NCBI RefSeq assembly: GCF_000470315.2
Contig: NZ_CBRF02000004.1
Coordinates: forward strand, 1 to 64,000
DNA length: 64,000 bases
Source: Psychromonas sp. SP041
GTDB lineage: Bacteria > Pseudomonadota > Gammaproteobacteria > Enterobacterales > Psychromonadaceae
Direction of reading: 5' to 3'
In this document: in pieces, positions 781 through 17,002 of the stretch
Numbering within the stretch: the first letter of the stretch is position 1
How the letters are laid out: each line of letters begins with the position of its first letter
Made by a program: the position numbers and the translations under genes
Notes under the pieces: model-generated
Database searches by the model: none
The model's input: only the letters and a program-made list of their open reading frames with translations
Told to the model about the DNA's origin: nothing

Positions 781-1038
781 TTAATATATCGGTTCACCTA
801 TTAATGTCGGTTTAGTAATTAGAATCTTATCGGGCGCTGTTTGCGGAGATGTTTTAATTCCATCAAAAGCATACTGTTCACTTATTTCTATTGCTTGTGC
901 TACCTCTAATAGTTCTTGTTCGATTGCATCTCGAAGTATTGGTAATCCGACAATGGAGCCAATAATCATTATGGTCATGATTAAAATAAGTTCAGTCGTT
1001 ATTACAAAACCTTTCTGATTTTTTCTATACGTCATCAT
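781..1038 (-). CDS. Small prepilin-like protein (Tad/Flp-associated)
   Basis: An 85-residue protein with a short basic leader (MMTYRKNQKG), the motif GFVITTE and a single hydrophobic helix (about residues 17-33), which is the layout of type IV/Flp prepilins. Glu lies six residues after the Gly, not the usual five. The region after the helix (VAQAIEISEQYAFDG) closely matches the 128-residue protein at 6560 (VAEAIG..DQSYAFDG), so the two are paralogues. The gene is divergent from the receiver gene at 1345 and has its own sigma54 promoter match at 1107-1122. I infer a minor or alternative pilin subunit of the pilus encoded downstream. No signal-peptidase gene is visible here. Confidence 0.72.
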   Translation of the reverse strand: MMTYRKNQKGFVITTELILIMTIMIIGSIVGLPILRDAIEQELLEVAQAIEISEQYAFDGIKTSPQTAPDKILITKPTLIGEPIY

Positions 1039-1106
1039 GTTTTATACCTATTCAGGATAATTATCTTTGTTGTACATCCATAATATTACAATGTCACAAT
1101 ACATAG

Positions 1107-1122
1107 AGCATTATGTGTGCCA
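1107..1122 (-). promoter_or_regulatory. Candidate sigma54 promoter of the 781-1038 prepilin gene
   Basis: On the minus strand the sequence is TGGCACACATAATGCT. It matches TGGCAC-N5-TTGCA with a perfect -24 element and the GC of the -12 element at the right spacing. Transcription would begin near 1097, about 60 bases before the ATG at 1038. Confidence 0.65.
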
Positions 1123-1232
1123 CCTTTAATAATATCGATAGAAATACATCATTCATTTTTAGTTTTTGTGAAACATGATGGTGTTTAAGAAATGGTTTCG
1201 TAGAGCATCACATTATCAATTGCTTTGTCTTT

Positions 1233-1248
1233 TGGTTCGTAATTTGCA
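1233..1248 (+). promoter_or_regulatory. Candidate sigma54 promoter of the receiver gene at 1345
   Basis: TGGTTCGTAATTTGCA carries GG and TTGCA at the -24/-12 spacing. Transcription would start near 1258, 87 bases before the ATG. It points away from the minus-strand site at 1107-1122, so the two form a divergent sigma54 promoter pair. A degenerate match to the 19-bp enhancer motif (12 of 19) lies between them at 1156-1174; I do not rely on it. Confidence 0.6.
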
Positions 1249-1344
1249 TGTCACTTAGAGTGAGCTAGTTTAATTTGACATTAATTAGTCTTAAATGTCC
1301 CAGAGAAGGTTAACTTCTTGTTAAATATCAGTCAGGAGATGGAA

Positions 1345-1746
1345 ATGAAAGCAGTAACTACATTAAGGGTATTTGTCGCAGATGATAGTAAGCCGAGTAA
1401 AATGTTAACTATTATTTTATTACAAAGCTTAGGTTGTACTGTGACTGGCGCTGATGATGGACTTGAAGCGTTAGAAATAACAAGTAAACAACCGTTCGAC
1501 CTTATTTTTTTAGATGAAAACATGCCCGGTTTATTGGGGAGTGATGTCGCTGAGCAATTGCATAATAATAAAGGTAATGATGAAGGCCTAGGAATCAATG
1601 CAAACACGCCCAAAATATCGCTAACGGGGATTGTTGGTGAAGAGTCTATCAATGATCTATATGCAAAAGGCATTACCCATCATATTGAAAAACCAGTGAC
1701 AAAAACGATATTGGAAAGCTTTTTGAAGCAATGGAATGAAGACTAA
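1345..1746 (+). CDS. Single-domain response regulator (CheY-like receiver)
   Basis: 133 residues forming one receiver domain and no output domain. The acidic pocket (ADDS, residues 11-14), the phospho-acceptor D57 in FLDENMPG, the conserved Thr in SLTG and the Lys in EKPVTK are all present, so it should be phosphorylatable. AGGAG at 1334-1338 sits six bases before the ATG at 1345, so this start is preferred over the TTG at 1318 and the ATG at 1339. It has its own sigma54 promoter match and lies just before the pilus genes. A role as phosphate sink or pilus-control switch in the local phosphorelay is inference. Confidence 0.88.
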   Translation: MKAVTTLRVFVADDSKPSKMLTIILLQSLGCTVTGADDGLEALEITSKQPFDLIFLDENMPGLLGSDVAEQLHNNKGNDEGLGINANTPKISLTGIVGEESINDLYAKGITHHIEKPVTKTILESFLKQWNED

Positions 1747-2125
1747 TTTTTTTGTTTTTTTAGAAGTAAATATAAAGAACGAATAACTTTTTTGAAATGG
1801 CGGTTTTTTATAAGTAATTGTTTTTTAAATAGATATAGGTATAGGTAAGTGTTTTTCATTCTGATGATGAAGTTAATGCTTAACGTCTCTTGTAAATACA
1901 TTATAAGTTAACCATATCGTCTTTTTATAAGGTTTGGATTATTCATTTTCATTCAAGTGTTTTTTAATTCATTTTAAAACGGCTGAAATGATACTTTTCA
2001 GTTTCAGTTTCAGTATCAGTATCAATACCAATCAAATACTAAAACCCTAAAATAAATGTCTTTAATCTTATCGCAGTATCGTCATACTCGATTATTGAAT
2101 GTCTAAAAACTATTTTAAACCCACT
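1747..2125. other. Gene-free AT-rich stretch
   Basis: I see no gene here. T-rich tracts follow the receiver stop codon, and 1994-2030 is a short imperfect hexamer array (TTTCAG then TATCAG units). Regulatory elements for the secretin gene begin at 2126. Confidence 0.5.
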
Positions 2126-2144
2126 TATTTGCAAAATGCGATTC
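2126..2144. promoter_or_regulatory. 19-bp enhancer-like element upstream of the secretin operon
   Basis: TATTTGCAAAATGCGATTC matches the reference element at 15918-15936 in 16 of 19 positions. A second, weaker copy (about 14 of 19) follows at 2166-2184. The centre is about 137 bp before the -24 element at 2272. The position and near-palindromic form suit an upstream activator site for the LuxO-like protein at 13918; that assignment is inference. Confidence 0.6.
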
Positions 2145-2270
2145 AATATAAGAATATTTAATCTCATTTTGCATATTGCTAATTTTTCGTTTGTCATTCT
2201 ACTTTCCTTTTTTAAGGTAACTAACTGTTCTATAAGTTTTAAATAAATATTCATTGTATATTTTACAAGC

Positions 2271-2286
2271 TGGTCTAAATGTTGCG
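2271..2286 (+). promoter_or_regulatory. Candidate sigma54 promoter of the secretin operon
   Basis: TGGTCTAAATGTTGCG has the invariant GG and GC exactly spaced, with TTGC at -12. The predicted start of transcription is near 2297, about 60 bases before the secretin ATG. Together with the upstream 19-bp elements it has a textbook enhancer-promoter layout. Confidence 0.65.
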
Positions 2287-2358
2287 ATATAACCAGAAAC
2301 CCTCGAATTAAAAACATTATATGTGTTTAGTTGAAAACGAAGGTAACAGGAGAATGGT

Positions 2359-4320
2359 ATGAGCATGATTAAATTAGTATTGGTTTGTTTTATTGGCGTC
2401 TTATTTTTACAGCCAACGGTTGCTGTAGCTGGTGGCCTTATGTTTGTAGAAACAGCGGATAGTAGAAAGTCTAAAAATATAAGAAAATTGGTGCAATGGA
2501 CTCATAGCCGATTAGTCTTCAATAAAGTGCTTGAGCGTATCGCTGTTGGGCAAGAAGAAACGTTACAAATAGAAGTATTGAGTAAAAATGAGGCGTTAGT
2601 ATTAGCCAAAGAAGTAGGGCGAACCAGCGTGATGGTTTGGTATTCAGATCAAACCTCAGAAACATTCTTATTTACAGTCACTTCAGATTTAAGTGTATTG
2701 CATCATGCCATCAAAGATATTCATCCTAATATATCGCTCACATTAGCACCTGATAGAGATGCGCTCGTGTTACGTGGAAAAGTGCCGACGATTAAATACC
2801 GTATTGCAGCAGAAGCCGCAGCTCGTAACTACTTTGAAGCAGGCCAAGGGAGCAGTGATAACGTGTTATTACAATCATCTCCACTGAATGCAGTAGTTGA
2901 TAATTTACGTATGCAAAATAAAAGCATTCAACCTCAATCGAAAAGGAATACTCGTTCTGCTGCAATTATCAATTTGATCTCTGTTGAAACTTTGCCTGAA
3001 GATATTGTTACACGCGTTAAAACCAATATTGATTTGGTGGGTGGTGAGTCGGTTACAGTTACTCGTGTACAACATGGTGACATGCCTGATGCGAACCAAG
3101 ATACTTTATTACTAAAAGGTTTTGTCGATAATCAAGTTGAGCTGGTTAGAGTGTTAACAGTTGCCTCTAGGCTAGTAACGGGGGAAGAAGTCAAAAAATC
3201 TAAAGAAGCAGTTATTTCAATTTTAGCGAATGAATCTGGTGGATTGTTTAACGGAAAGAGCAATAAAAGCTCAGGCGGTTTAGGTGGACTGGGGTTAAGT
3301 AGCGCATCTAGCGGCAGCGCTGATAACAATATTGCATCTAACATTGGGCGAGCAAAGTTGTTATCTGTCGCTGGTGGGAAATTGTTGTCAGTGATTGAAG
3401 TACGCGACTTGCCATTAATACGTGTATCGGTACAAATGTATGAAGTGAATAAACGTCGCTTAAAACAATGGCGTCCTGACTTCTCTGTGTTAAGTAATGG
3501 ATATGATAAAACGGGCGGTAATTTTGGTTTAGAAGGTGCAACTGCAGACGCATCATCGTCGTCAAAAGTGAATAACGCCTTACAAATTTTAGGAGGTGGG
3601 TTAGTTAATAACTTACAAGTGATCGGTAAAGACTTTGCATTTGACTTGTTATTTTCGATGTTGGAAGAAGAAGGGATATCGAAAACATTATCTCGTCCTA
3701 CTTTAACTGTTTTAGCAGGAGAAACTGCTGTCTTTTCTGCGGGTGGTGAAGTGCCACTTCCAACGGCGTTCGCACCAAGCGGGATTGTTAGTGGAGATCA
3801 AGTCGGATCAAATACATCAGGCGTCTTCAGCGGCACTACATTTAAGTCATTCGGTGTGCAATTACAAGTTCGTGCAATGGTAGATGAAAATGATCGCATC
3901 ACATTGGACTTAAACCCGACCATTTCGACACCTGATACGCTTTTAACTCAACAAATATCAGATAGCACTGGCAGCGGCTTAAATACGTCTGCGTTTAATG
4001 TGAGAAGTTTAAGTACATCGACTCGTTTACGCGATGGGCAACCGATGGTGATTGGTGGGTTAGTAAGCCGTGATATTAATGACAGTCGAGACTTTACACC
4101 TGGCGTGAGTGATATTCCGATACTTGGAAAGTTGGCTGAAGCGACATCTGAATCAGACTCCGAACGAGAGTTATTCATTATCGTGACACCAACGATTGTA
4201 AGAGAGTTAAAACACGAAGTTAATTTATGGCAGTTCCCTACAACAGGAGCGTTATTACAAAAATCTGTCTTTAATGTAAATCATGCATTCAATTCTTCTC
4301 ATAAGGAAACTACAAAATGA
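2359..4320 (+). CDS. Tad-type pilus outer-membrane secretin (CpaC/RcpA family)
   Basis: 653 residues with an N-terminal signal peptide (hydrophobic 4-24), a pilus N-terminal/BON-like periplasmic part (to about 290), a Gly/Ser-rich linker (about 294-322) and a C-terminal secretin domain (about 345-620). The secretin block LSRPTLTVLAGETAVFSAGG is clear and is followed by VPIPT-like VPLPT and the closing segment RELFIIVTPTIV. The family forms the outer-membrane ring through which the Flp pilus passes. It is longer than most CpaC proteins because of the linker. The start has AGGAG at 2348-2352. The stop overlaps the next gene by four bases (ATGA), so the two are translationally coupled. Confidence 0.93.
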   Translation: MSMIKLVLVCFIGVLFLQPTVAVAGGLMFVETADSRKSKNIRKLVQWTHSRLVFNKVLERIAVGQEETLQIEVLSKNEALVLAKEVGRTSVMVWYSDQTSETFLFTVTSDLSVLHHAIKDIHPNISLTLAPDRDALVLRGKVPTIKYRIAAEAAARNYFEAGQGSSDNVLLQSSPLNAVVDNLRMQNKSIQPQSKRNTRSAAIINLISVETLPEDIVTRVKTNIDLVGGESVTVTRVQHGDMPDANQDTLLLKGFVDNQVELVRVLTVASRLVTGEEVKKSKEAVISILANESGGLFNGKSNKSSGGLGGLGLSSASSGSADNNIASNIGRAKLLSVAGGKLLSVIEVRDLPLIRVSVQMYEVNKRRLKQWRPDFSVLSNGYDKTGGNFGLEGATADASSSSKVNNALQILGGGLVNNLQVIGKDFAFDLLFSMLEEEGISKTLSRPTLTVLAGETAVFSAGGEVPLPTAFAPSGIVSGDQVGSNTSGVFSGTTFKSFGVQLQVRAMVDENDRITLDLNPTISTPDTLLTQQISDSTGSGLNTSAFNVRSLSTSTRLRDGQPMVIGGLVSRDINDSRDFTPGVSDIPILGKLAEATSESDSERELFIIVTPTIVRELKHEVNLWQFPTTGALLQKSVFNVNHAFNSSHKETTK

Positions 4321-5183
4321 AAATTAACCTATTTTCTTCAATGTTTATTTTATTGAGTGGTTTGATCATCACTGGTTGTGCCAATAACAATACTATTAAT
4401 CAAGTATATGCACCAAATGAGCAATTAGATGAGGTCTTAACACGTTATGTTAAAATTAAACAAGAGAGTCGCCAATGTGAAGCTAACCAACAGCCGTTAT
4501 CAGAAGCATGTAGTTTGAGCTCAGATGGGCGTCATGAAACGTGTTTGAAAAATCAAATCAATAGTGTTAATTGTACGAATGCAACAGCCCAAAAAGCAAT
4601 CGATACCAGTAAGTTAGTGATTAACCTTAATTGTCACGACATTAATCAACCGATGGTGGACTGTTTTAGATTAGCATCTGAATTGAGCGCTTTATATTTA
4701 AAATACCCCAATCATCAGCGCGTCATCATGGCAAGTGCTTTAGTTGAATTTGAAATTGGTAATACAGGTGCTAGCCAACAATTATTAGATCTGATTTTAT
4801 CTAAACGAGGTGCTTATCCTGAAGCGGCAATATTACGCAGTAGAATTGCAATGGAAGAAGGTAATTTGAGTCTTGCTAGAGCAATAGTCACACGCCAACT
4901 AAATATTACCCCTTACGAATCTAATTTATATGAGCTTCAAGCTGCTTATTATTACCTTGAAGGTAAATACTCTAAAGCCTTGCTATCAATGACTTCAGCA
5001 GAACGTTTTATGGGCAATCATTGGAGAATTGGTTATCACCGTGGAATTATTTATGAAGCACAGAAGGAATGGTATAAAGCTTGTAAAGAATATAAGGGCG
5101 TTTTAGAAGAGCAGCCAAGTAATAAATTATTAAATGCTAAAGTATTGTTATTGAGAGAACATGTACCTTGTCGCCTTAATTAA
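4317..5183 (+). CDS. TPR lipoprotein (TadD-like), secretin partner
   Basis: 288 residues with a lipoprotein signal peptide ending in the lipobox ITGC (Cys21), then a Cys-containing N-terminal region and tandem TPR-type helices in the C-terminal half (for example AILRSRIAMEEGNLSLARAI and ELQAAYYYLEGKYSKALLSM). TadD-type lipoproteins of Tad systems have this organisation and are thought to help assemble or pilot the secretin. Its gene overlaps the secretin stop codon, which supports a joint role. The N-terminal cysteines (CEANQQ, EACSLS, ETCL, VNCTN, NCHD, DCFR) may form disulfides; that is inference. Confidence 0.8.
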   Translation: MKINLFSSMFILLSGLIITGCANNNTINQVYAPNEQLDEVLTRYVKIKQESRQCEANQQPLSEACSLSSDGRHETCLKNQINSVNCTNATAQKAIDTSKLVINLNCHDINQPMVDCFRLASELSALYLKYPNHQRVIMASALVEFEIGNTGASQQLLDLILSKRGAYPEAAILRSRIAMEEGNLSLARAIVTRQLNITPYESNLYELQAAYYYLEGKYSKALLSMTSAERFMGNHWRIGYHRGIIYEAQKEWYKACKEYKGVLEEQPSNKLLNAKVLLLREHVPCRLN

Positions 5184-5256
5184 AAAATCTCTAATGAACA
5201 GCTATATTCATAAAATGTCATTCATTTGAATCTGAGTATGGGTTAGCAATGACTCA

Positions 5257-5295
5257 ATAAACCCGAGTAGTTTCGCCAATACTCGGGGTTTATTG
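5257..5295 (+). terminator. Terminator-like hairpin after the secretin operon
   Basis: AATAAACCCGAGTA at 5257-5270 pairs with TACTCGGGGTTTATT at 5281-5295 around a 10-base loop. It lies about 75 bases after the TPR gene. The T-tract is poor, so termination efficiency is uncertain. Confidence 0.6.
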
Positions 5296-5347
5296 GTTCA
5301 GTTAAGAAGTGAAAATAACTACATTCATAGAACTAAAGAGGGTAGTT

Positions 5348-5511
5348 ATACCAATGGAATTAAATAAGTGATCAGATATTGCGCAGGAAAAATTAACACT
5401 AATAAGGCATGAGTTGTAGGAGATAGTTGTTCTCACTTCAAAACTCACAACGCAGTTAGGGGTAATTTTAACCAGCAAGAATGATCACCTTATTAATTCT
5501 TTTGGAATTAA
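5348..5511. repeat. Dispersed repeat family A, copy A2
   Basis: This copy is nearly identical to copy A3 at 23957-24117 over its whole length (differences at only a handful of positions). The inner ends AAATAAGTGATCA and TGATCACCTTATTAATT are inverted repeats. Near identity between copies 18 kb apart implies recent spread or gene conversion. It has no coding capacity. Confidence 0.8.
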
Positions 5512-5767
5512 TGCAAAACATGCAGTTATCCAGTGTTAAAACCCTGTAAATAATCCTATGTAAAGTAAAAAAGATTTAACTGCCTCGTCAAACCTTCTGC
5601 AATCACACTCGTCAACTGTTATCAATATAAAATAATGAGGGTTCTATTATTTATTAAATTTAATCGTTATTAATGAGCTTATAAATGATGGCTAAATCTA
5701 AACCACTTCAGCCAAAATGAGACGAATACGTTATGATTTTCTTCATCTTTTTATATTTATATCAATT

Positions 5768-6032
5768 TATACACGTCACCATTCAAGGTGCAGAAATCAG
5801 CAAGTTATAAGGTAAACAGACGCTAGAATGGGAGAGGAAGATCTAACGGGTTAAGTCGAGACTTTCTAACAACGAAGGTATTTACTTCACAGCTTGCCCT
5901 CTAGGTCACCAACTTTACCTTGTAACCTTCGATAAGGACTAGCCGCTACTATTACATGACCACCATGTTGCGTTTTGATTTGGAGTCCAAGCTAACACCT
6001 GAGTAAAGCATCTTGAGGATAACGGGTATATA
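5768..6032. repeat. Dispersed repeat family B, long copy B1
   Basis: It begins TATACACGTCACCATTCAAG and ends TCTTGAGGATAACGGGTATA, which are inverted relative to each other. The interior carries AAGATCTAACGGGTTAAGTC, shared in inverse orientation with copies B3 and B4, and GATAAGGACTAGCC, shared with B2. At about 265 bp it is the longest copy. It shows no reading frame of note. Confidence 0.7.
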
Positions 6033-6131
6033 CCTATAAATAGAGGATAATTGCTCGGAACAATACCGCCATTATGCTTTCTCTTTTAATTATTTAGTCC
6101 TTTCTCGCTTATCAGTTACTTATTAATAAGC

Positions 6132-6194
6132 GTATTTATTATTTATTATTTATTATTTATTATTTATTATTTGTTATTTATTATTTGTTATTTT
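6132..6194. repeat. TTATTTA heptamer tandem repeat
   Basis: About nine head-to-tail copies of a 7-base unit (TTATTTA, with TTGTTA variants in the last copies) lie in the gene-free region upstream of the prepilin gene. Such low-complexity arrays are prone to length change. Any effect on the promoter 270 bases downstream is unknown. Confidence 0.8.
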
Positions 6195-6309
6195 GATGGT
6201 GAATGCCCATAAAATAATGAAGAGATAAATTACTTTGTAAAATTTTTATATCTTTTTTATTCGTATTTTAATTGTTATAGCTAGCGGTATGCCTGCTTTT
6301 ATCAACTTT

Positions 6310-6328
6310 GATTTGCATTTTGCAATTC
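6310..6328. promoter_or_regulatory. 19-bp enhancer-like element upstream of the prepilin operon
   Basis: GATTTGCATTTTGCAATTC matches the 15918 reference element in 15 of 19 positions, including GATTTGCAT exactly. Its centre is about 149 bp upstream of the -24 GG at 6468. Confidence 0.65.
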
Positions 6329-6466
6329 AGAATAGAATTAATATGAAAAAAACCGTATGCCTCTATTATTTTCCTTTTCCTATTCTTATTTTGATTTTTA
6401 ATTATCTGATTGATTTTTATCTTAATTATTTTATTTTTATTTTTTATTTTTAATTTAATTAAAAGG

Positions 6467-6482
6467 TGGCATAACAATCGCA
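6467..6482 (+). promoter_or_regulatory. Candidate sigma54 promoter of the prepilin/tad operon
   Basis: TGGCATAACAATCGCA matches TGGCAC-N5-TTGCA at 9 of 11 defined positions, with GG and GC intact. Transcription would begin near 6493, about 67 bases before the ATG at 6560. Confidence 0.65.
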
Positions 6483-6559
6483 ATAGTAGATACAAGCTCA
6501 AACGAATTGAGTTTGTTTATTACTCATTATTCATTTTTATAACAATAGAGGTAAATATC

Positions 6560-6946
6560 ATGAAAACAATTAAAAACAACAAACTAGGCAAGAAAAAAGA
6601 AGCTGGCTTTGTAATGACTTCAGAGCTGTTATTATTGTCTACTACTATTGTAATTGGACTTGTCGTTGGTTTAACAACAATGCGTGATGCTGTTACTGCC
6701 GAAATGGAAGATGTTGCTGAAGCGATTGGCTCTCTTGATCAAAGTTATGCATTTGACGGTTTAATAAATGGTGAAGGGACTGCTGAAATCAGTGGGTCTG
6801 GTTTTATCGATGCAGTTGATGTTAATGCGGGTGATGGTCAAAAGTTTGAATTTATCGTTTCTGACTTTTCTGAATCGGCTGCTGCAATTGATGGAACAGC
6901 AAGTACAGCTGCTAATTCTTCAAGTAATACCGGTAGCCTTAAGTAA
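6560..6946 (+). CDS. Flp-like major prepilin candidate
   Basis: 128 residues. A basic leader (MKTIKNNKLGKKKEAG) is followed by FVMTSE and a hydrophobic helix (about 23-40), as in type IV/Flp prepilins, then a Gly/Ser/Ala-rich tail ending TASTAANSSSNTGSLK. Gly16 to Glu22 is six residues, one more than the canonical spacing. SD GAGGT at 6548-6552 supports the ATG at 6560 rather than the longer reading frame from 6410. Position as first gene of the cpaB-cpaF-tadBC operon, its own sigma54 promoter and a following attenuator-like hairpin suggest the major subunit. It is a paralogue of the protein at 781-1038. Confidence 0.78.
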   Translation: MKTIKNNKLGKKKEAGFVMTSELLLLSTTIVIGLVVGLTTMRDAVTAEMEDVAEAIGSLDQSYAFDGLINGEGTAEISGSGFIDAVDVNAGDGQKFEFIVSDFSESAAAIDGTASTAANSSSNTGSLK

Positions 6947-6960
6947 CTCGAGACCTTACT

Positions 6961-7000
6961 GACAGGTTCAAATTAATGCGCCTGTCCTCACTTTTTATTT
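6961..7000 (+). terminator. Attenuator-like hairpin between prepilin and cpaB genes
   Basis: GACAGG at 6961-6966 pairs with CCTGTC at 6981-6986 and is followed by a T-rich run at 6991-7000. The short stem suggests partial termination. This would let the prepilin be made in excess over the assembly machinery, as is usual for pilin operons; the last step is inference. Confidence 0.45.
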
Positions 7001-7017
7001 GATTAATGGGGTGGTTT

Positions 7018-7779
7018 ATGAAAGTTAAATTAACGGGTAGTGCAACAGGTGCTATGCTCCTTTTTACTGCATCGGGTATGCTGGCTTCTGTTCTTGGTAT
7101 TCGTCAAATTGACAAGATGTCAACGGTATCAGCTTGGACTGTCAGTAGTCATCTAGAATCAGGTCAAGTCATTACACAACGGTCATTAAAAAAAGTGCGT
7201 ATCGATCAGGATGATGTGTCTGGCACCATTCAAAACCCTCGTCAATTAATGGGGAAAACATTAAAAGTAAATAAACAGGCCGGTAGTGCCATTTATCCAA
7301 GTGATCTCAAAGTTAAAGAGAAGAGGTCTTTATCACAAGCAATTCCCTCAGGTAGGGTTTTATATACCCTAGAGCATGTTCAAAAAGGCATGCCTTACGG
7401 ACAAATGAGTGATGGTGACCGTTTTGATGTCGTTGTTAGAAGTCGAAATGGTGTACGTACAGTTGCACGAGATATTCAGTTGATTGGCATTAATTATCCA
7501 GCTGCTAAAAAAGCAGATGATAATGGTTTAAAAAACATGTTGTTACCTAAAAAAAGTCAAGATGCTAACCAGCCTGGTGTGTCATTAATCGTGGCGATAA
7601 GACCTTCAGACGTTCATGCATTAACCAGTATTAGAGCAAGCGATACCATTGCGATGATTTTTCATAGTGCACATGATATTGCACAGGGCACTCAACTGAA
7701 TATTGATCCTAAGCAGCGCTTTCGTAATGTTGAAATGGTTGCAGGTATACGACGTTCAAATGTAAGAGTGAACCAATAA
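7018..7779 (+). CDS. cpaB: Tad pilus assembly protein CpaB/RcpC (SAF domain)
   Basis: 253 residues with an N-terminal membrane anchor (about 7-26) followed by an SAF domain (VSSHLESGQVITQRSLKKVR, then LMGKTLKVNKQAGSAIYPSDL) and a periplasmic RcpC-type C-terminal part. CpaB proteins are periplasmic components of the Tad secretion channel. GGGGTGG at 7008-7014 makes the ATG at 7018 the likely start; the ATG at 7006 would bury this site. The order prepilin-cpaB-ATPase-tadB-tadC matches Tad loci, except that the secretin normally next to cpaB is in a separate operon 2 kb upstream. Confidence 0.88.
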   Translation: MKVKLTGSATGAMLLFTASGMLASVLGIRQIDKMSTVSAWTVSSHLESGQVITQRSLKKVRIDQDDVSGTIQNPRQLMGKTLKVNKQAGSAIYPSDLKVKEKRSLSQAIPSGRVLYTLEHVQKGMPYGQMSDGDRFDVVVRSRNGVRTVARDIQLIGINYPAAKKADDNGLKNMLLPKKSQDANQPGVSLIVAIRPSDVHALTSIRASDTIAMIFHSAHDIAQGTQLNIDPKQRFRNVEMVAGIRRSNVRVNQ

Positions 7780-7816
7780 TCGATGTTGTTTAGATTTTAA
7801 GAAGAGGTGGCTTATC

Positions 7817-9145
7817 ATGGAAAACTCGAACATAACATTAGATCTTACTGAACTTGAGAAAGAAAATATTGCGTCAGAGCGTTTCCGAGAATTACGTCAT
7901 TTTTTACATAATCGTCTGATTGATGGGATTGAAGAACAAAACATACATTTATTAAAAGACATCAATCAGGTAGAACGTCGTTTAAACCTGTTACTTGATG
8001 AAATGCATCCTAGATTAAATCCTAAGTTAAGTGTCAACGAACAAAAAAACTTAACTTTACAAATCATGCATGAATTAACGGGGTTAGGGCCAATATCAGG
8101 TTTAATGGAAGAACCTGGGGTGACTGATATTTTGATAAATGGCCCACATGAAATTTGGGTTGATAGAAATGGTCGTCTAACAAAAACTAATTTACGCTTT
8201 GATAATGAGAGCCACTTGAAACGTTTTTTAGACCGTATTTTAAGTACTCAAGGTAGACAGTTAGATGCACGTCAACCGATGGTCGATTCTCGTTTACCAG
8301 ATGGCAGTCGATTACATGCAGTGATTCCACCTCTTTGTGAATCTGGCCCAATCGTCTCTATTCGTCGATTTCATACTGAGGATTTGAGCACTCAGCAACT
8401 GATCGATAAGGGTTTTTTAAGCCAAGCTATGATGGATTTTTTAGCATTAGCTGTGTCGACAGGGATCAATATCGTGATCGCCGGCAGTGCAGGAGCAGGT
8501 AAAACAACCTTACTGAATGCAATATCAGGTTTCATTCCTGAGACTGAACGTATTGTAACGGTTGAAGAAACGGCTGAATTACAATTAAAACATCCTCATG
8601 TTATTTCATTAGAATCTCGACATACTAATAGCGAAGGTAATGGAGCGATTAGCTTGAGTGACTTAGTTAGAAATGCATTACGTATGAGGGCAGATCGCAT
8701 TGTGGTTGGAGAAGTACGAGGTGTTGAAGTCTTAGACATGTTACAGGCGATGAATGTCGGACATGATGGAAGTTTAACCACGTTACATGCGAATAGTCCA
8801 AATGACGTGATTAGTAGAATGGAAACATTAGCGCTAATGGGCAATGAAGGTTTTTCAACCGTCGCTATTCAACAAATGATTCGCTCTTCATTACAATTAA
8901 TTATTCAAGTGATGCGTTTTCAGGATGGTAGTCGTCGAGTGGTCAGTATTTGTGAGTTTATTCAGAACGACGATAAAGAACAGATTCGAGAATTATTTCA
9001 TTTTAAACATGCAGATAATAGCCACCCTGAGTGTATTGAGGGAAGCCATAATGCAACTGGCAATGATTCTGAGTTAGGGACTAAAGTTGCATTTAAAGGC
9101 TATACCAGCGAGCAATTTAATCGGTTGTTAAAGGTGGAGAAATGA
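7817..9145 (+). CDS. cpaF: Tad pilus secretion ATPase CpaF/TadA
   Basis: 442 residues. It has the CpaF N-terminal domain (GLGPISGLMEEPGVTDILINGP), Walker A GSAGAGKT at 223-230, the Asp box/Walker B region RIVVGEVRG at 294-302 and the His box segment ALTTLHANSP-like SLTTLHANSP. This hexameric cytoplasmic ATPase powers pilus assembly in the Tad system. About 55 C-terminal residues after the core are poorly conserved. SD GAGGTGG at 7804-7810. The stop overlaps the tadB start by four bases. All catalytic motifs look intact. Confidence 0.96.
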   Translation: MENSNITLDLTELEKENIASERFRELRHFLHNRLIDGIEEQNIHLLKDINQVERRLNLLLDEMHPRLNPKLSVNEQKNLTLQIMHELTGLGPISGLMEEPGVTDILINGPHEIWVDRNGRLTKTNLRFDNESHLKRFLDRILSTQGRQLDARQPMVDSRLPDGSRLHAVIPPLCESGPIVSIRRFHTEDLSTQQLIDKGFLSQAMMDFLALAVSTGINIVIAGSAGAGKTTLLNAISGFIPETERIVTVEETAELQLKHPHVISLESRHTNSEGNGAISLSDLVRNALRMRADRIVVGEVRGVEVLDMLQAMNVGHDGSLTTLHANSPNDVISRMETLALMGNEGFSTVAIQQMIRSSLQLIIQVMRFQDGSRRVVSICEFIQNDDKEQIRELFHFKHADNSHPECIEGSHNATGNDSELGTKVAFKGYTSEQFNRLLKVEK

Positions 9146-10053
9146 TGATAAATATAGAGTCTATCGGTTTATTTTTAAGCCTATTTATCATGTTAATTAT
9201 CTTTTTTTATTGGTTTAAGAAATTGAATCTAAAAAAAGCTAATTCTAATAAAACATTTCCTGACAACACACTTAAAGCTGAGCTTCATGAGCAGACTAAG
9301 AATAAGCCCGTATCTGCATTAGGTAATCATTTACAAACGCTTAATATAAATTTACCTCCTGCGCTTATTATTATTGGTATTGGCGTGATTGCTGTCTCTG
9401 TTTTCATGTTGTTATTAGAACTTTTTCCTAAACATATTCCATTAGCGGCGATCGCGGCTATGGCGGTAACGGTGTTTTGTTTCAATAGCATTAGTGATTT
9501 AGCTAAATATAAAATAAAACGAGTAGAAAAAGGATTAGCTGAAGCGATGGATATGATGAAAGCCGCATTGACTAGTGGTCAGTCACCACATCAAGCAATT
9601 AATTTAGCCGCGGAGTCAGGAAAGGGAACCGTTAAGTTCTTGTTAATAGGTATGTTAGGGCGTTTAGATATGGGGTGTACGCCGGAACAAGCAATTAACC
9701 AACTAACGACTAAATATAATTGTGTTGCTACTCGACTATTTGCCCAGGTTATTATTGCTCGTTACCAATCAGGAAGTGATCTTACCTTTATGCTGGATTC
9801 GGTTAATCGTATTGTCCGAGATAGACAACGTCATCAATTACAAATTGATACTCATTTATCAGGGACTCGTTACGCAGCAATCTTATGCGGTGGTTTACCT
9901 TATATTTTGATCCCTATTTTATTATGGCAGCAGCCAGATTGGTTTGACACGCTATTAAAACATCCATCTGGTCCAACTTATCTTGGTGGTGCATTATTTT
10001 TACAGTTTTTTGGTTATTTATGGCTACGTCGTATTGCGAGGATAGAGCAATGA
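9142..10053 (+). CDS. tadB: Tad inner-membrane platform protein TadB
   Basis: 303 residues. There is one N-terminal membrane segment (about 8-25), a pair of helices near 75-118, a cytoplasmic T2SSF domain (GLAEAMDMMKAALTSGQSPH through RYQSGSDLTFMLDSV) and two C-terminal membrane helices. TadB and TadC together form the inner-membrane platform that couples the ATPase to pilin extraction. ATGA overlaps exist at both ends, with cpaF before and tadC after, so the three products are probably made in step. Confidence 0.9.
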   Translation: MMINIESIGLFLSLFIMLIIFFYWFKKLNLKKANSNKTFPDNTLKAELHEQTKNKPVSALGNHLQTLNINLPPALIIIGIGVIAVSVFMLLLELFPKHIPLAAIAAMAVTVFCFNSISDLAKYKIKRVEKGLAEAMDMMKAALTSGQSPHQAINLAAESGKGTVKFLLIGMLGRLDMGCTPEQAINQLTTKYNCVATRLFAQVIIARYQSGSDLTFMLDSVNRIVRDRQRHQLQIDTHLSGTRYAAILCGGLPYILIPILLWQQPDWFDTLLKHPSGPTYLGGALFLQFFGYLWLRRIARIEQ

Positions 10054-10865
10054 ATATGTTTAATTGGTTGGATTTTATTTTTTTATTGATGTTGATTATT
10101 TTTCTCTACTTTTTAAAGCAAAGTTTAAGGGAGGAAAGTAAATTAATTGAAGACCCATTTAATCACTCAAAGAAAAGCTATTTAATTTACCCTCAAAAAT
10201 TGATCCGCCAATGTGGTATTCCATTAGAACGTTTCTGGTTATGGTACTGGGCTGTAAAGTGGGGCTGTGCGGTTATATTTGTTGCATTGGCACTTGAACT
10301 CTCATTAGGTGTTTGGAGTGTTGGTGTTATCGGTATTGTCACGTTTTTATTTATGGATATTTATTTATTACTTAAACGAAACCATCGTCAAAGTAGAATA
10401 AATTTGTCATTAGTCTTTTTTATTAATTTATTAATTGTTTTTTTGAAGTCAGGTTTATCATTGAGTCAGGCCTTTCGTAAAGCCGCCCATTTCGGTTTGC
10501 AAAAAGATAACCCTTTAGCTGCTGAGCTTGAATTAATTGCCTATGAGCTTGATGCAGGTCGAGAGCGAGCCATTGCTTTTAATAACTTATCGGCAAGAAC
10601 AGGTGTAGAAGCTTTAAATAAACTTGCCGTTATCATTAAAGCTGGGATAGAAGTGGGTAGCCCTGTAAGTGATGGGCTTCAGTCATTAGCTGATTTTCTC
10701 CGATTACAACAAGATCAGCAACTTACCAGTCGTATCAACAGAAAAGCATTAGAGTCTACGTTACCGATGGCAATGGTTTGTTTTCCGATGTTCTTTGTTT
10801 TAGTTTTTTTTCCCGCTGGGCAGCAAATTAGTGAAATTATGGCCTTACTTGGCGACATATTATAA
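10050..10865 (+). CDS. tadC: Tad inner-membrane platform protein TadC
   Basis: 271 residues with an N-terminal helix (about 7-20), two central helices (70-115), a T2SSF domain (LIVFLKSGLSLSQAFRKAAHFG to KAGIEVGSPVSDGLQSLADFLR) and a final hydrophobic segment (AMVCFPMFFVLVFFPAG). The chosen ATG overlaps the tadB stop (ATGA); a 10-residue longer reading frame begins at 10020 but would overlap tadB more. It is the partner of TadB. Confidence 0.9.
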   Translation: MNMFNWLDFIFLLMLIIFLYFLKQSLREESKLIEDPFNHSKKSYLIYPQKLIRQCGIPLERFWLWYWAVKWGCAVIFVALALELSLGVWSVGVIGIVTFLFMDIYLLLKRNHRQSRINLSLVFFINLLIVFLKSGLSLSQAFRKAAHFGLQKDNPLAAELELIAYELDAGRERAIAFNNLSARTGVEALNKLAVIIKAGIEVGSPVSDGLQSLADFLRLQQDQQLTSRINRKALESTLPMAMVCFPMFFVLVFFPAGQQISEIMALLGDIL

Positions 10866-10913
10866 GTGTGTTTTTTTTGTCACGAACTACACTAAATAGA
10901 AAAAGGAATTGAT

Positions 10914-11972
10914 ATGGCTAGATCAACATTGTGTAAAGTAATACCTGCAAAGGCTAGCTTAAATAAACAAGGTGGTTTTGTATTAACGATTGAATTAATC
11001 CTGATCATTACTATTTTAGTGATTGGTAGTTTTGTCGGAATCACTGCTATTAGAGATGCATTGTTTAAGCAAAAAATAAAACAACAAGACAGAAGTGTTT
11101 TGGTTGCAGACAGTAATAATAATGTACTGGGAGAAGTGATTAATTTTGATGAACATGACGCCCCTCAGTTACTTTATATTGACCGTACAACGACTAACCC
11201 ACCTAAAAATTACCGCGCATTAATTGGTGTTCGTGATGATCGCTTTACTAGTAGAGAGCCTATTTATTACACTGCGTTAAATTGCCAAGGCGACCCTTGT
11301 ATTAAACCAACCAGTAATGAGACCTTAGATAGTTCAGGCGTCAGTCGTTTACCTAATACAGGCGCGGTTAGTTATTTCCAAGCATTACAAAATGGTCCAA
11401 ATTACGCGATAGGTCGTTCGCCTAATGGCCTTCCTGGCTTTTTATACAAAGAAACCTTCGAAGCTTGCCCTATGCCTGAAATTATCGGAGGCATAGGATC
11501 GCCAATCGGGTCTCGTTACATATCACAAAAAGTAGTCACAGGAGAACCCTGTGAATCGCCTGTTAATTTACCGCTAGATGCTGGACAGGCGCCATTAACA
11601 TGTTCTTCATCAGATAGCAGTATTCCATTAAGTGCTAGCTGTGATTCTGCTTGTGGAACAGACAGTGGAGGACAATGTGCTTGCCCAGCAGGTTATTATT
11701 CAGTAACTGGTGGCCTAGTAGATAGGTTAGGTTTACAAGGACAATGTTGTCCTAATGGTACTGAATTAGAGGATTCAAGCCAACTAGGGATTGGTGTTAA
11801 TGCTTTATGCTCAGGCCTGAACCTTAAAAAAGCAGTATCGGTACCTAATATAAATGATCAAACACAAAATGCGTTAGAACCATTTATTCCTCCTTTTCAA
11901 GTTAATTTGCCTGCTTTAGGTGGAAGAATCGATGGTGATCAATGGTTTAATACGGCTCCCAACGGAGAATAG
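10914..11972 (+). CDS. Large cysteine-rich prepilin-like protein, possible tip subunit
   Basis: 352 residues. A basic leader ends in GGFVLTIE (Gly21, Glu27) and is followed by a hydrophobic helix (about 28-45), as in prepilins and in the two small paralogues in this window. The large extracellular part has about 12 cysteines, many clustered in 229-300 (SCDSACGTDSGGQCACPAGY, then GQCCPNGTE), an EGF-like or otherwise disulfide-knotted module. It follows tadC after 48 bases with AAAGGA before the ATG and is closed by a strong terminator. The position replaces the TadE/TadF pseudopilins of other loci. A minor pilin carrying an adhesive or sensing tip is my inference; I do not recognise the module. 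Confidence 0.7.
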   Translation: MARSTLCKVIPAKASLNKQGGFVLTIELILIITILVIGSFVGITAIRDALFKQKIKQQDRSVLVADSNNNVLGEVINFDEHDAPQLLYIDRTTTNPPKNYRALIGVRDDRFTSREPIYYTALNCQGDPCIKPTSNETLDSSGVSRLPNTGAVSYFQALQNGPNYAIGRSPNGLPGFLYKETFEACPMPEIIGGIGSPIGSRYISQKVVTGEPCESPVNLPLDAGQAPLTCSSSDSSIPLSASCDSACGTDSGGQCACPAGYYSVTGGLVDRLGLQGQCCPNGTELEDSSQLGIGVNALCSGLNLKKAVSVPNINDQTQNALEPFIPPFQVNLPALGGRIDGDQWFNTAPNGE

Positions 11973-12286: not shown

Positions 12287-13120
12287 ATGAAGGCATCTAA
12301 AATTCAACGCTCTGAGTTAAGCCATGACCTTAAAAAGCAATGCGTTAGCACATCATCAGTGTTAGATAACTTAACTGACATCATTGATAGTGCGATGAAA
12401 AATCAGCATTTTTCTATGGTTTATCAACCCCTTTTTTCTATGCAAAATAGTAAATTAATTGGTTTTGAAGCATTGGTTAGATGTCACTCCCCTCAATTTG
12501 GTCTTATTTCACCAGATAAGTTCATCCCTCATGCTGAAGAAAGTGGTCAGATTGTTGAGTTAGGTGAATGGATATTCCAACAAGTACTATTGGACCTAAA
12601 GCGTTTCCTTCAGTATGGCTTAAAAGATATTGTTGTTTCTCTAAATATTTCTGCAGTACAGATCGTCAACTCAGATATTTTCAGTCAAATAATGAGCCTC
12701 ATGGACAAACTAGATATTCCGCCACGTTGTATCAAATTAGAACTAACTGAAACTGCATTGATTCAAAACCCAAAGGTTATTGCTAAAGTTTTTAATGCTT
12801 TTCAAAATGAAGGTGTTGAAATTTGGGTCGATGATTTTGGTACTGGTTTTGCTTCTTTAAGTTTATTACGAGAGTTTAAAGTCAATGGTTTGAAAATCGA
12901 TAAAAGTTTTGTCGATGGTATTGCTACTTGTAATGATGACTTTACTTTGTGTAGCGCGATAGTCGCTATGGCTCAACGCCTAGGCATGCATATTGTTGCT
13001 GAAGGTATTGAGGATGAAGTGCAATTACAAATTCTTAATCAATTAGGTTGTGATACGGCACAAGGCTATTTATTAGGAAAGCCTGCCTCATTTGAAGATA
13101 ATTTATATCGCTGGGGATGA
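12287..13120 (+). CDS. Cyclic-di-GMP phosphodiesterase, stand-alone EAL domain
   Basis: 277 residues, one EAL domain after a short N-terminal segment, with no GGDEF, PAS or membrane part. The catalytic set is complete: EALVR (E61), the ELTE segment LELTET, DDFGTG, the KIDKSFV lysine, AEGIE, and QGYLLGKP. The predicted activity is therefore hydrolysis of c-di-GMP to pGpG in the cytoplasm. It lies directly after the pilus operon and before the HPt/LuxO-like genes, with its own sigma54 promoter and enhancer match, so it is probably co-expressed with the pilus. Lowering c-di-GMP when the pilus is induced would be a feedback on attachment; that is inference. SD AAGGA lies ten bases before the ATG. 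Confidence 0.92.
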   Translation: MKASKIQRSELSHDLKKQCVSTSSVLDNLTDIIDSAMKNQHFSMVYQPLFSMQNSKLIGFEALVRCHSPQFGLISPDKFIPHAEESGQIVELGEWIFQQVLLDLKRFLQYGLKDIVVSLNISAVQIVNSDIFSQIMSLMDKLDIPPRCIKLELTETALIQNPKVIAKVFNAFQNEGVEIWVDDFGTGFASLSLLREFKVNGLKIDKSFVDGIATCNDDFTLCSAIVAMAQRLGMHIVAEGIEDEVQLQILNQLGCDTAQGYLLGKPASFEDNLYRWG

Positions 13121-13220
13121 TCGATAATTAGAGCATGAGTATTCGTAGATAGAGACTTTTATCTACGGATTATGGAATGCTTAATGGCCAAGCTAACATT
13201 CAACTAACGTTGGCAATATA

Positions 13221-13391
13221 TATACCCATCTCCACTCAATATGCAAAATCAGCAAGTCCTGCGGGGCGCCAATTCGAAAACCAATATTGCGTTGTAACAT
13301 TCGATAAGGACTCGCCATTGTCATCATGTTAGACCCTTTGTTGGTATCCGAGTTAATGGCTGAACAATGCATCTTGATTGGTAATGGGTAT
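13221..13391. repeat. Dispersed repeat family B, copy B2
   Basis: It starts TATACCCATC and ends TTGATTGGTAATGGGTATA, arms that are inverted copies of each other. The interior shares CATTCGATAAGGACT with B1. It fills most of the gap between the EAL gene and the HPt gene, and no promoter is clear in it. Confidence 0.65.
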
Positions 13392-13557
13392 AACTTTATA
13401 TTTTATTTTATGGTTAAAGTCATTATTTAGTGAATTAAATCAATATAAATAAACCCAAATGGGGTATTTTAAGTAAACGGTACTATAGTTGTGTTGTTAT
13501 TTATAGTTTGTAATGTATTGGCTAATAAAGAAGAAAATGTAAATTGGTGATTAAAAT

Positions 13558-13905
13558 ATGCATAATTTAATTGATGAAAATGTTATCGAACAAATGAAAG
13601 ATGACTTAGATGATGAAACTTGCCATAAGTTGATTGGCTTGTTCATTGAGGAGACAACTTCGTTATTAGCCGATTTAGAGAAAGCGTTTGAGGTGATGGA
13701 TTTACCAACAATCGAAAGTGTTACTCATATACTTAAAAACTCTGCTGCACTGTATGGGGCAGTTTCAGTTGCAATAGCCGCTAAAGATATAAATGACAGA
13801 TTGTCTTCGCCATCAAAGATGATTACTCGTGAAGATAGTCAGTTGTTAGCATTGATTAATAAAACACTGAAAGTGTATAACAGCAAATATAACAAGGCTC
13901 TTTAG
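13558..13905 (+). CDS. Histidine phosphotransfer protein (LuxU-like HPt)
   Basis: 115 residues forming a single four-helix HPt domain. The phospho-acceptor is H57 in THILKNSAALYGA, corresponding to the HxLKxSA motif of the family. Size and pairing with a LuxO-like gene 13 bases downstream are as for luxU-luxO in Vibrio. It should relay phosphate from a hybrid kinase receiver to the downstream activator. There is no strong Shine-Dalgarno before the ATG. A poor -24/-12-like match upstream (13475-13490, GT instead of GC) is not convincing, so this pair may be expressed constitutively. Confidence 0.85.
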   Translation: MHNLIDENVIEQMKDDLDDETCHKLIGLFIEETTSLLADLEKAFEVMDLPTIESVTHILKNSAALYGAVSVAIAAKDINDRLSSPSKMITREDSQLLALINKTLKVYNSKYNKAL

Positions 13906-13917
13906 TAAGGGAATTAC

Positions 13918-15336
13918 ATGTCAAAAACATTACAAAAAACGTTAGTTTATATTGTAGAGGACAGTTTATCTAGTGGTGCTTTATATAGTTCTCAGCTTGA
14001 AAAGGCTGGCTATGAAACCCGGAATTTTGTTGATGGATATTCTGCTTTGGCGGCGATTAAAGAAAGAATGCCTAGTGTTATTATTCAAGACGTTTGTTTA
14101 CCAGATATTAGTGGATTAAACGTTCTACAGTTCGTTAACCGTCAAGACTCACCTGCACGTGTCATTATTATCACTTCGAATAGTTCGATAGAAACGGCTG
14201 TCGATGCAATGCGTTTGGGTGGTTTCGATTTTATTGAAAAACCTTTCTCTCGTGAGCGAATGATAACGTCGGTACGAGATGCGGTGAAGCAACTTCATTT
14301 AGAAGAAGTTGAATCTAAAAAAGTAACAGTAGAAACATCGACGACACCAGAACTGTCATTTATTGGTGAATCCTTAGCAATGAAAACAGTATTTCGTCTG
14401 CTTGATAGTGCACTACGTAGTAAAGCAAGTGTATTTGTTACTGGTGAAAGTGGTACAGGTAAAGAAGTTTGTGCTCAATATTTACATAGCTTCAGTGCTA
14501 GAAAAAATGCTCCTTTAATTGCCATAAATTGTGCAGCAATTCCGAGAGATTTATTTGAATCAGAATTTTTTGGTCACATGAAAGGATCTTTTAGTGGGGC
14601 CGTCTCAGATAGAAAAGGCGCAGTAGAAGCAGCCAATGGAGGTACTTTATTTTTAGATGAAATATGCGAAATGGATTTAAACTTACAAGCTAAATTATTA
14701 CGCTTTCTACAAACAGGGACGTTTAGTCGAGTGGGGAGTACTGACGTCATTCAAAGTGATGTACGAGTGGTTTGTGCAACTAATCGCAACCCTGCTGCGG
14801 AAGTTGGTGAAGGGCGTTTTCGAGAAGATTTATATTATCGTTTAAATGTAATCCCTATCCAATTACCGCCACTACGTGATAGAGGCAAAGATATATTGCT
14901 CTTAGCGAATGCTATTTTAACGGATAAAAATGAAGCTAACGACAAAGAGTTTGTACAGTTCTCATCAGATGTTCAGTCAATGTTTATGCAATACGATTGG
15001 CCAGGTAATATTAGAGAATTACAAAATATAATAGAGAATATGGTCGTTATACATTCGGGTACTGATATTACTTCTGATATGTTGCCAGAAACTTTTGGTA
15101 AAAAAAGTCTTTCTGCGATTAAACCAGCCTCTATTACAACAGACAGTCATATTAATGTATCGAGTAAAGAAGCAAATATCAAAGATATCATTCCGATGTG
15201 GTTAATAGAAAAAAACGTGATAGAACAAGCGATTAATATTTGTGATGGGAATATCCCATTAGCAGCTGCTCATCTTGGGGTTAGTGCATCGACAATTTAC
15301 CGTAAAATTAAGAGTTGGCAAGGTGAGGCCATTTAA
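13918..15336 (+). CDS. LuxO/NtrC-family sigma54-dependent response regulator
   Basis: 472 residues: receiver domain (8-120, phospho-acceptor D58 in QDVCLPD), AAA+ domain (about 145-385) with Walker A GESGTGKE at 176-183 and Walker B TLFLDEI, and a Fis-type HTH (about 434-468, AAAHLGVSASTIYRKIK). The sigma54 contact loop reads GSFSGA at 223-228 instead of GAFTGA. The Thr-to-Ser change is common among active members; the Ala-to-Ser change is less usual. It likely receives phosphate from the adjacent HPt protein and opens sigma54 promoters. The sigma54 promoters and shared 19-bp elements around it are its likely targets. That link is inferred from context. Confidence 0.92.
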   Translation: MSKTLQKTLVYIVEDSLSSGALYSSQLEKAGYETRNFVDGYSALAAIKERMPSVIIQDVCLPDISGLNVLQFVNRQDSPARVIIITSNSSIETAVDAMRLGGFDFIEKPFSRERMITSVRDAVKQLHLEEVESKKVTVETSTTPELSFIGESLAMKTVFRLLDSALRSKASVFVTGESGTGKEVCAQYLHSFSARKNAPLIAINCAAIPRDLFESEFFGHMKGSFSGAVSDRKGAVEAANGGTLFLDEICEMDLNLQAKLLRFLQTGTFSRVGSTDVIQSDVRVVCATNRNPAAEVGEGRFREDLYYRLNVIPIQLPPLRDRGKDILLLANAILTDKNEANDKEFVQFSSDVQSMFMQYDWPGNIRELQNIIENMVVIHSGTDITSDMLPETFGKKSLSAIKPASITTDSHINVSSKEANIKDIIPMWLIEKNVIEQAINICDGNIPLAAAHLGVSASTIYRKIKSWQGEAI

Positions 15337-15403
15337 TCATTTTACCCATTTAGTTGTTAACGTCATTGATTTAAAAGCCTTGTTTATCAAAGACTAGGTT
15401 TAT

Positions 15404-15611
15404 TATATCCGTTACCGATCAAGGTGCTTTGTTCAGTCGTTAGCTTGGACTTTAAATCAAGGCGTAACATGATGACAATGGCGAGTCCTTTTTGAAGGTT
15501 GTAATGCATATAGAAAGTGTCGATTTAACCCGTTAGATCTTCCGCTTTCTACCTAGCATCCGTTCACTTCACCGCTTGTTGAATTTTGCACCTTGAATGG
15601 TCACGGTTATA
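15404..15611. repeat. Dispersed repeat family B, copy B3
   Basis: It is bounded by TATATCCGTTACCGATCAAG and its inverted counterpart TTGAATGGTCACGGTTATA. It contains the conserved blocks AAAGTGTCGATTTAACCCGT and ACCTAGCATCCGTTCACTTC, shared with B4. It lies between the LuxO-like gene and the regulatory region of the binding-protein gene. Confidence 0.7.
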
Positions 15612-15900
15612 AATAGAGCATTGTCTGTAAACAAACATTAATCAGAGTAGATTTCTTAAGCTTAGTCTTTTAGTTGTTAGTTATGTTATTAACAATGAGG
15701 AGCATTCTATAGGCAAGTTATTATTTGGTTTATCATTCATTACGAATATTATTGTTTTAATTAATAAAGTAACAGAAATGAACTTCGGTTAAGCAAAGTA
15801 GAAATACGATGCGGGGTTAATCAATTTATTCAATCCTTTAATTTACCTGTTTATTCATCTATTTGTTAAGCAATTTCTTTATGAGTGTATTTTACATCAT
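15612..15900. other. Gene-free AT-rich stretch
   Basis: I see no gene, repeat or terminator in it. It separates repeat B3 from the enhancer element at 15918. Confidence 0.4.
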
Positions 15901-15917
15901 AAAATGTGATGCAAATT

Positions 15918-15936
15918 GATTTGCATAATGCGAATC
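15918..15936. promoter_or_regulatory. 19-bp enhancer-like element, best copy (reference)
   Basis: GATTTGCATAATGCGAATC is almost a perfect inverted repeat (GATTYGCAT/ATGCRAATC). Directly upstream, ATGCAAAT at 15909-15916 forms a second inverted arrangement with ATTTGCAT of this element. The centre is about 106 bp before the -24 GG at 16033. Related copies occur upstream of three other sigma54 promoters in the window. Confidence 0.7.
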
Positions 15937-16031
15937 TAAATATGAAATTATTTTTAATTAATGTAGCCAATGTGAATTAAATGTTTTACTTATCAATGAT
16001 GTAGCTTTGTTTTTATTTGTTCTTCTCATTA

Positions 16032-16047
16032 TGGAGTATTAATTGCT
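16032..16047 (+). promoter_or_regulatory. Candidate sigma54 promoter of the binding-protein/kinase operon
   Basis: TGGAGTATTAATTGCT carries GG and TTGC at the correct spacing. Transcription would start near 16057, 28 bases before the ATG. If real, the sensor genes belong to the regulon they control. Confidence 0.62.
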
Positions 16048-16084
16048 TTATTATAAGCATTAGTCACTACATAAAGGCAAGCTG

Positions 16085-16972: not shown

Positions 16973-17002
16973 ATAATTTAAGCGTATTTACAAGGAAGTT
17001 AT

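Follow-up and report, generated by a model that had tools for sequence, protein, structure and literature searches.

Three prepilins in a Tad locus

Nearly all bacterial type IV pilins are considered to have Glu5, a residue regarded as required for filament assembly. In the window analysed here, the 64,000 nucleotides at the start of contig C4 of Psychromonas sp. SP041 (genome 4.80 Mb), three prepilin-like proteins instead place a glutamate at +6 after the last glycine of the leader, within a shared GFVxTxEL motif. The motif and its spacing, which the initial annotation had read from the letters, are confirmed in all three ORFs.

P1 (781..1038, minus strand) is a small prepilin-like protein of 85 aa, recognized as an ORF homologous to P2 and a paralogue of it; its N-terminus, MMTYRKNQKG|FVITTELILI, has a predicted cut after Gly10 (codon 1009-1011), which puts Glu16 at +6. 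P2 (6560..6946, plus strand, 128 aa), an ORF with its ATG behind AGAGGT and homology to gammaproteobacterial pilins, is the predicted major pilin. Its N-terminus reads ...KKKEAG|FVMTSELLLL, with a predicted cut after Gly16 (6605-6607) and Glu22 (6623-6625) at +6, and it shares 50-70% identity over its full length with the lone upstream pilin of gammaproteobacterial +6 Tad loci. The predicted structure of P2 contains only a helix, residues 11-57, with pLDDT >90 over 21-50.

P3 (10914..11972, plus strand, 352 aa), identified as an ORF and by its position after TadC, is a predicted large minor pilin combining a pilin helix with a Cys-rich domain. Its N-terminus is ...KQGG|FVLTIELILI, the predicted cut falling after the second Gly, Gly21 (10974-10976), with Glu27 (10992-10994) again at +6. 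The P3 family has nine invariant Cys across 15 sequences and an RDDRFTSRE motif, matches nothing in Pfam or NCBIfam, and lies directly 3' of TadC in the gammaproteobacterial loci with an intact cluster; P3 is a candidate tip subunit or tip adhesin. The predicted structure of P3 has a mean pLDDT of 44.6, too weak for a fold search. Homologues of P3 were seen downstream of TadC at loci L006, L014-L020 and L055, and in the region just after P3 at L019:9753-10049 and L020:10958-11107 there is a small protein that joins a Sec-type N-terminus to a segment similar to the part of P2 that follows the helix (EDLAEALEQLDQSFQYPG).

P1 and P3 are 37-40% identical to P2 over the aligned portion. The three proteins are thus homologous and owe their common motif to shared ancestry, and the genome holds no further member of their family. 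Each has a hydrophilic leader ending in Gly, followed by a hydrophobic helix with an acidic residue, as expected of type IV pilins in the broad sense. None matches a Pfam or NCBIfam family, and a sequence search for relatives of solved structure returned chance matches only.

P2 lies within a Tad cluster, all on the plus strand, in the order secretin, TPR lipoprotein, P2, CpaB, TadA, TadB, TadC, P3. The CpaC/RcpA-type secretin (2359..4320) matches Pfam Secretin (5e-35) and T2SS-T3SS_pil_N (3.9e-09), and the TadD-like TPR lipoprotein (4317..5183) has weak TPR matches and a lipobox-like ITGC near its N-terminus. CpaB/RcpC (7006..7779) carries a SAF domain and matches TIGR03177 at E=6.6e-11, below the cut-off. 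The TadA/CpaF ATPase (7817..9145), placed in the TadA tree described below, matches T2SSE (2.3e-58) and TIGR03819 (5e-103, below the cut-off), and is followed by the separate platform proteins TadB (9142..10053) and TadC (10020..10865), each with a single T2SSF domain (5.2e-08 and 3.1e-14). An ATPase with two separate platform proteins, together with an RcpA/CpaC secretin and CpaB/RcpC, is the arrangement of a Tad, or type IVc, system. This set is syntenic in Shewanella, Pseudoalteromonas, Alteromonas, Pseudomaricurvus, Marinobacter, Pseudomonas SJZ079, Oceanococcus, Abyssibacter and one Salinisphaerales MAG, with an altered gene order in Marinobacter and Pseudomonas, and each intact gammaproteobacterial +6 locus has one P2-like pilin and one P3.

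There is no convincing TadE match in the whole genome; the sole one is a 377-aa protein, apparently unrelated, that looks HemX-like from its neighbourhood and make-up. No TadZ/CpaE was seen among the ORFs listed between the Tad genes of the window locus, and assembly is assumed to proceed with a reduced Tad set in which TadZ, TadE and TadF are unrecognised. Beside the locus, at 12287-19690, the window encodes an EAL-domain protein, an HPt protein, an NtrC-type regulator and a BarA-like hybrid kinase. These genes also occur at L006, L007 and L014-L016 and are kept at least partly across several genera, and control of the pilus by c-di-GMP through them is possible.

The +6 spacing is conserved across three phyla

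Related Tad loci were searched for these pilins, as the initial annotation had proposed, and the same spacing was recovered in marine Gammaproteobacteria, Planctomycetota and one Acidobacteriota MAG. A scan covering 84,980 species genomes yielded 50 loci, all in these three groups; one of its two patterns included GFV, so that selection on the motif is possible, while the other (T-x-x-x-IG-x-x-VG) and the subsequent profile searches are independent of GFV. The family is rare in evenly drawn samples: 369 gammaproteobacterial genomes gave no further match, 6 of 119 planctomycete genomes hold 6-17 copies each, and among 199 Acidobacteriota genomes it was found only in the MAG already known.

Among the distinct N-termini, 118 have Gly followed by Glu or Asp at +6, two have Ala for the Gly, and five are unambiguously +5, a class under-sampled by a profile built from +6 members; one more, CDGGILTTEL, is ambiguous in having two Gly. 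All 23 distinct gammaproteobacterial N-termini from related loci keep the spacing, as do the 118 overall, a consistency that argues against error well beyond the three proteins from which this had first been argued. The distinct pilin subclass suggested at that time is borne out by a G-x5-E spacing that is family-wide, consistent and found in Tad loci. Ala is the only substitute tolerated at the Gly and the residue after it varies (F/A/Y/M/L/V/S/I), which identifies the Gly as position -1.

Several planctomycete paralogues that lack the Glu nevertheless keep the +6 spacing, having Ser or Thr at that position (GSIPALSW, GAISAMSW, GNANLASV, GETSIMSL and GSVSPVTT). They occur at loci L030, L044, L046, L049 and L109/L110, and by analogy with minor pilins that lack Glu5 they could act as tip caps (PMC10191384).

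In a midpoint-rooted TadA tree of 76 rows, in which the TadA of the window is row L198, the gammaproteobacterial +6 loci fall into a single supported clade (98/98) that excludes 18 ordinary TadA from the same class. The planctomycete +6 TadA group elsewhere in the tree, and the acidobacterial sequence branches between the two. A recent phylum-to-phylum transfer of the whole +6 system was considered and none is shown, the gammaproteobacterial and planctomycete TadA being in different clades; the tree as rooted is compatible with a common origin of the +6 systems or without one.

These proteins are therefore a real, conserved variant of Tad pilins and not another kind of system. The variant is apparently undescribed: in open, peer-reviewed papers we found neither Glu +6 pilins nor planctomycete Tad pilins. 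The motif G-[FYAML]-[IV]-x-[ST]-x-E-L can serve to recognize a pilin family that Pfam and NCBIfam have overlooked.

The shift is accompanied by changes around the glutamate

The five +5 members of the family are short planctomycete Flp pilins with canonical G-x4-E-Y (for example RRGSIFVEYLLLLTIVGIGVLVGLATVRVALVNELNDLANAINAINS). These sister pilins (GSIFVEYLLLLTIVGIGVLVGLATVRVALVNELNDLANAI) align without gaps with the +6 pilins from the Glu onward, and the two classes thus differ by one residue between Gly and Glu. P1, P2, P3 and the 118 family sequences all read G-x5-E rather than the Flp pattern G|x4-E-Y, with Glu at +5 and Tyr at +6, and in the window genome those N_methyl prepilins that were inspected are G-x4-E and Flp_Fap (PF04964) has no match at E<=1.

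The residues flanking the Glu were compared with a +5 control set of 31 sequences, made up of the five homologous Flp pilins and 26 pilin-like ORFs from 12 ordinary gammaproteobacterial Tad stretches and one Marinobacter stretch; the set was read by hand off a listing and includes TadE-like pseudopilins. The script that produced the listing allowed Tyr, Phe, Leu or Trp after the Glu and both spacings, and thus did not force the outcome for Leu or for +6. Ser or Thr occupies E-2 in 116 of 118 +6 pilins vs 6 of 31 controls, while an aromatic residue at E+1 is present in only 6/118 of the former vs every one of the latter (31/31), Leu taking its place in 107 of the 118; Fisher p-values for this covariation overstate its significance since the sequences are related. 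In the Caulobacter Tad pilus, Glu19 (mature +5) bonds with the backbone of Ala17 (E-2) and with Tyr20 (E+1) of neighbouring subunits (PMC11067988), so the two altered positions appear to be the two known contact positions of the Glu.

The strongest competing explanation is that the extra residue is neutral, the prepilins being cut after Gly and assembling, with one residue more at the N-terminus, into an ordinary Tad filament. The gapless alignment, the conserved Tad machinery and a review's remark that position 5 is 'often, but not always' occupied by the Glu (PMC10191384) all favour it. A neutral residue does not account well for a spacing invariant in 118 sequences and kept even where the Glu is lost, or for the aromatic-to-Leu and Ser/Thr changes that go with the shift, and we regard it as unlikely, though deserving of serious weight. 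The same evidence answers the caveat of the initial annotation that alignment might reveal an unremarkable one-residue insertion: one residue is literally inserted, but it is fixed across three phyla and tied to other changes, and is thus not unremarkable.

The general prepilin peptidase probably suffices

The initial annotation had further suggested that the subclass has its own peptidase preference, and this the peptidase inventory does not support. The window Tad locus encodes no A24 peptidase such as TadV, as is also true of the surroundings of some ordinary Tad loci. A search elsewhere in the genome, likewise proposed there, found two A24 enzymes, both outside the Tad locus. The second of these, a PilD-like peptidase, is on the plasmid-like contig C13, in a region (79.5-99.4 kb, L260) where it lies beside genes for a Replicase, a TraG/D-type ATPase and a full SecA homologue; a ClpP-like protein is encoded there too.

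Seven other +6 genomes have exactly one Peptidase_A24 each: Shewanella ulleungensis, two Pseudoalteromonas, Alteromonas hispanica, Pseudomaricurvus alcaniphilus, Pseudomonas SJZ079 and the acidobacterial MAG. In every case it is a two-domain PilD-type enzyme of 260-308 aa with a CxxC...CxxC motif, in a genome that also holds 9-19 canonical N_methyl (+5) prepilins. A dedicated peptidase for the +6 pilins was accordingly rejected for these seven; draft gaps hiding a second enzyme are conceivable in one genome, hardly in seven. TadV-like peptidases occur beside ordinary pilins: in Marinobacter sp. SS21 the second peptidase, a short enzyme of this type, adjoins a canonical +5 Flp (EEGTEVVEWALL) within an ordinary Tad locus that is separate from the +6 one, and in planctomycete G010 such an enzyme is close to a short +5 Flp and a TadE-like gene. 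Planctomycete G452 has a +6 array upstream of genes for CpaB-like, TadA and TadB proteins.

Mutagenesis of prepilins has found that cleavage depends critically on Gly-1 but can do without Glu5, so displacing the Glu calls for no special peptidase; Glu5 mutants are processed yet fail to homopolymerise (PMC4471445). For the Kil Tad pilus, PilD has been suggested as the possible general peptidase (PMC12075869). Given the inventory across the +6 genomes, cleavage by the general PilD is the simplest reading, and the shift probably bears on subunit packing and not on the enzyme.

The alternative put forward with the first reading, a distinct peptidase that cuts after Phe, would restore Glu to +5 exactly, and Phe does follow the Gly in 101 of 118 sequences. 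That site is also filled by Ala, Met, Leu, Ile, Val, Ser or Tyr, whereas the Gly is invariant or Ala, prepilin leaders are known to end invariably in Gly or Ala (PMC10191384), and the seven genomes hold no extra peptidase; we consider such an enzyme very improbable. That the proteins are instead Sec-processed or uncleaved membrane-anchored proteins and no prepilins at all, as the missing Pfam and NCBIfam pilin match might suggest, is scarcely credible given the charged leader, the Gly immediately ahead of the hydrophobic helix, the Glu inside that helix, the homology to planctomycete Flp pilins and the placement inside Tad loci in three phyla.

A probable Tad pilus with a displaced glutamate

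The account we favour, at a probability of about 0.72, is a Tad pilus of P1, P2 and P3 in which each is cut by PilD after the Gly and Glu6 makes a changed inter-subunit contact. P2 would serve as major subunit and P3 as a large minor one, probably at the tip, with P1 a further paralogue. The general chromosomal PilD would process all three as it does T4aP and T2SS prepilins, leaving the mature N-terminus Phe1-Val2-x3-Thr4-x5-Glu6-Leu7, and the processed subunits would assemble into a filament. There the shifted Glu would still link subunits, through a different partner and with the N-terminus one residue longer, and the loss of the aromatic residue after it and the gain of Ser/Thr at E-2 would accompany the changed contact.

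Going further, the +6 filament might have a core geometry of its own, in which Glu6 bonds Ser/Thr4 of a neighbour in place of the Glu5-Tyr6 hydrogen-bond network between subunits of the known Tad pilus, with another N-terminal register or helical symmetry and an adapted TadB/TadC. We hold this more specific proposal only tentatively, at below even odds; if it is true, type IV filaments can depart from the 'Glu5 rule'.

Comparison with known systems

TadE/TadF pseudopilins (PF07811) are minor pilins of Tad loci, a role that P3 may take over, although P3 has no TadE match and carries a large Cys-rich domain. The T4aP and T2SS prepilins (N_methyl, PF07963: GFTLIEL) share with the +6 family the Gly|Phe cut site, the Glu-Leu pair and probably the same PilD, but have Glu at +5 and different machinery, and the +6 proteins have no N_methyl match.

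The Flp pilin family (PF04964, Flp_Fap) includes Aggregatibacter Flp1, Caulobacter PilA and Myxococcus KilP. Like these, the +6 pilins have a hydrophilic leader ending in Gly, a hydrophobic helix with one Glu, and a Tad locus. They differ in having G-x5-E where Flp pilins have G-x4-E, Leu where Flp pilins have Tyr or another aromatic residue after the Glu, Ser/Thr at E-2, a C-terminal extension (P2 reaches 128 aa) and no Flp_Fap match. The finding is thus wider than the initial annotation could tell: a Tad pilin variant spread over several phyla, in which the Glu has moved and neighbouring positions have changed to match. As a conserved homologue of the ordinary Flp pilins, the Glu6 family offers a natural experiment on the role of the N-terminal register. 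The question of register is directly testable, since both classes occur in Marinobacter sp. SS21, at separate loci, and several species use one PilD for +5 and +6 prepilins.
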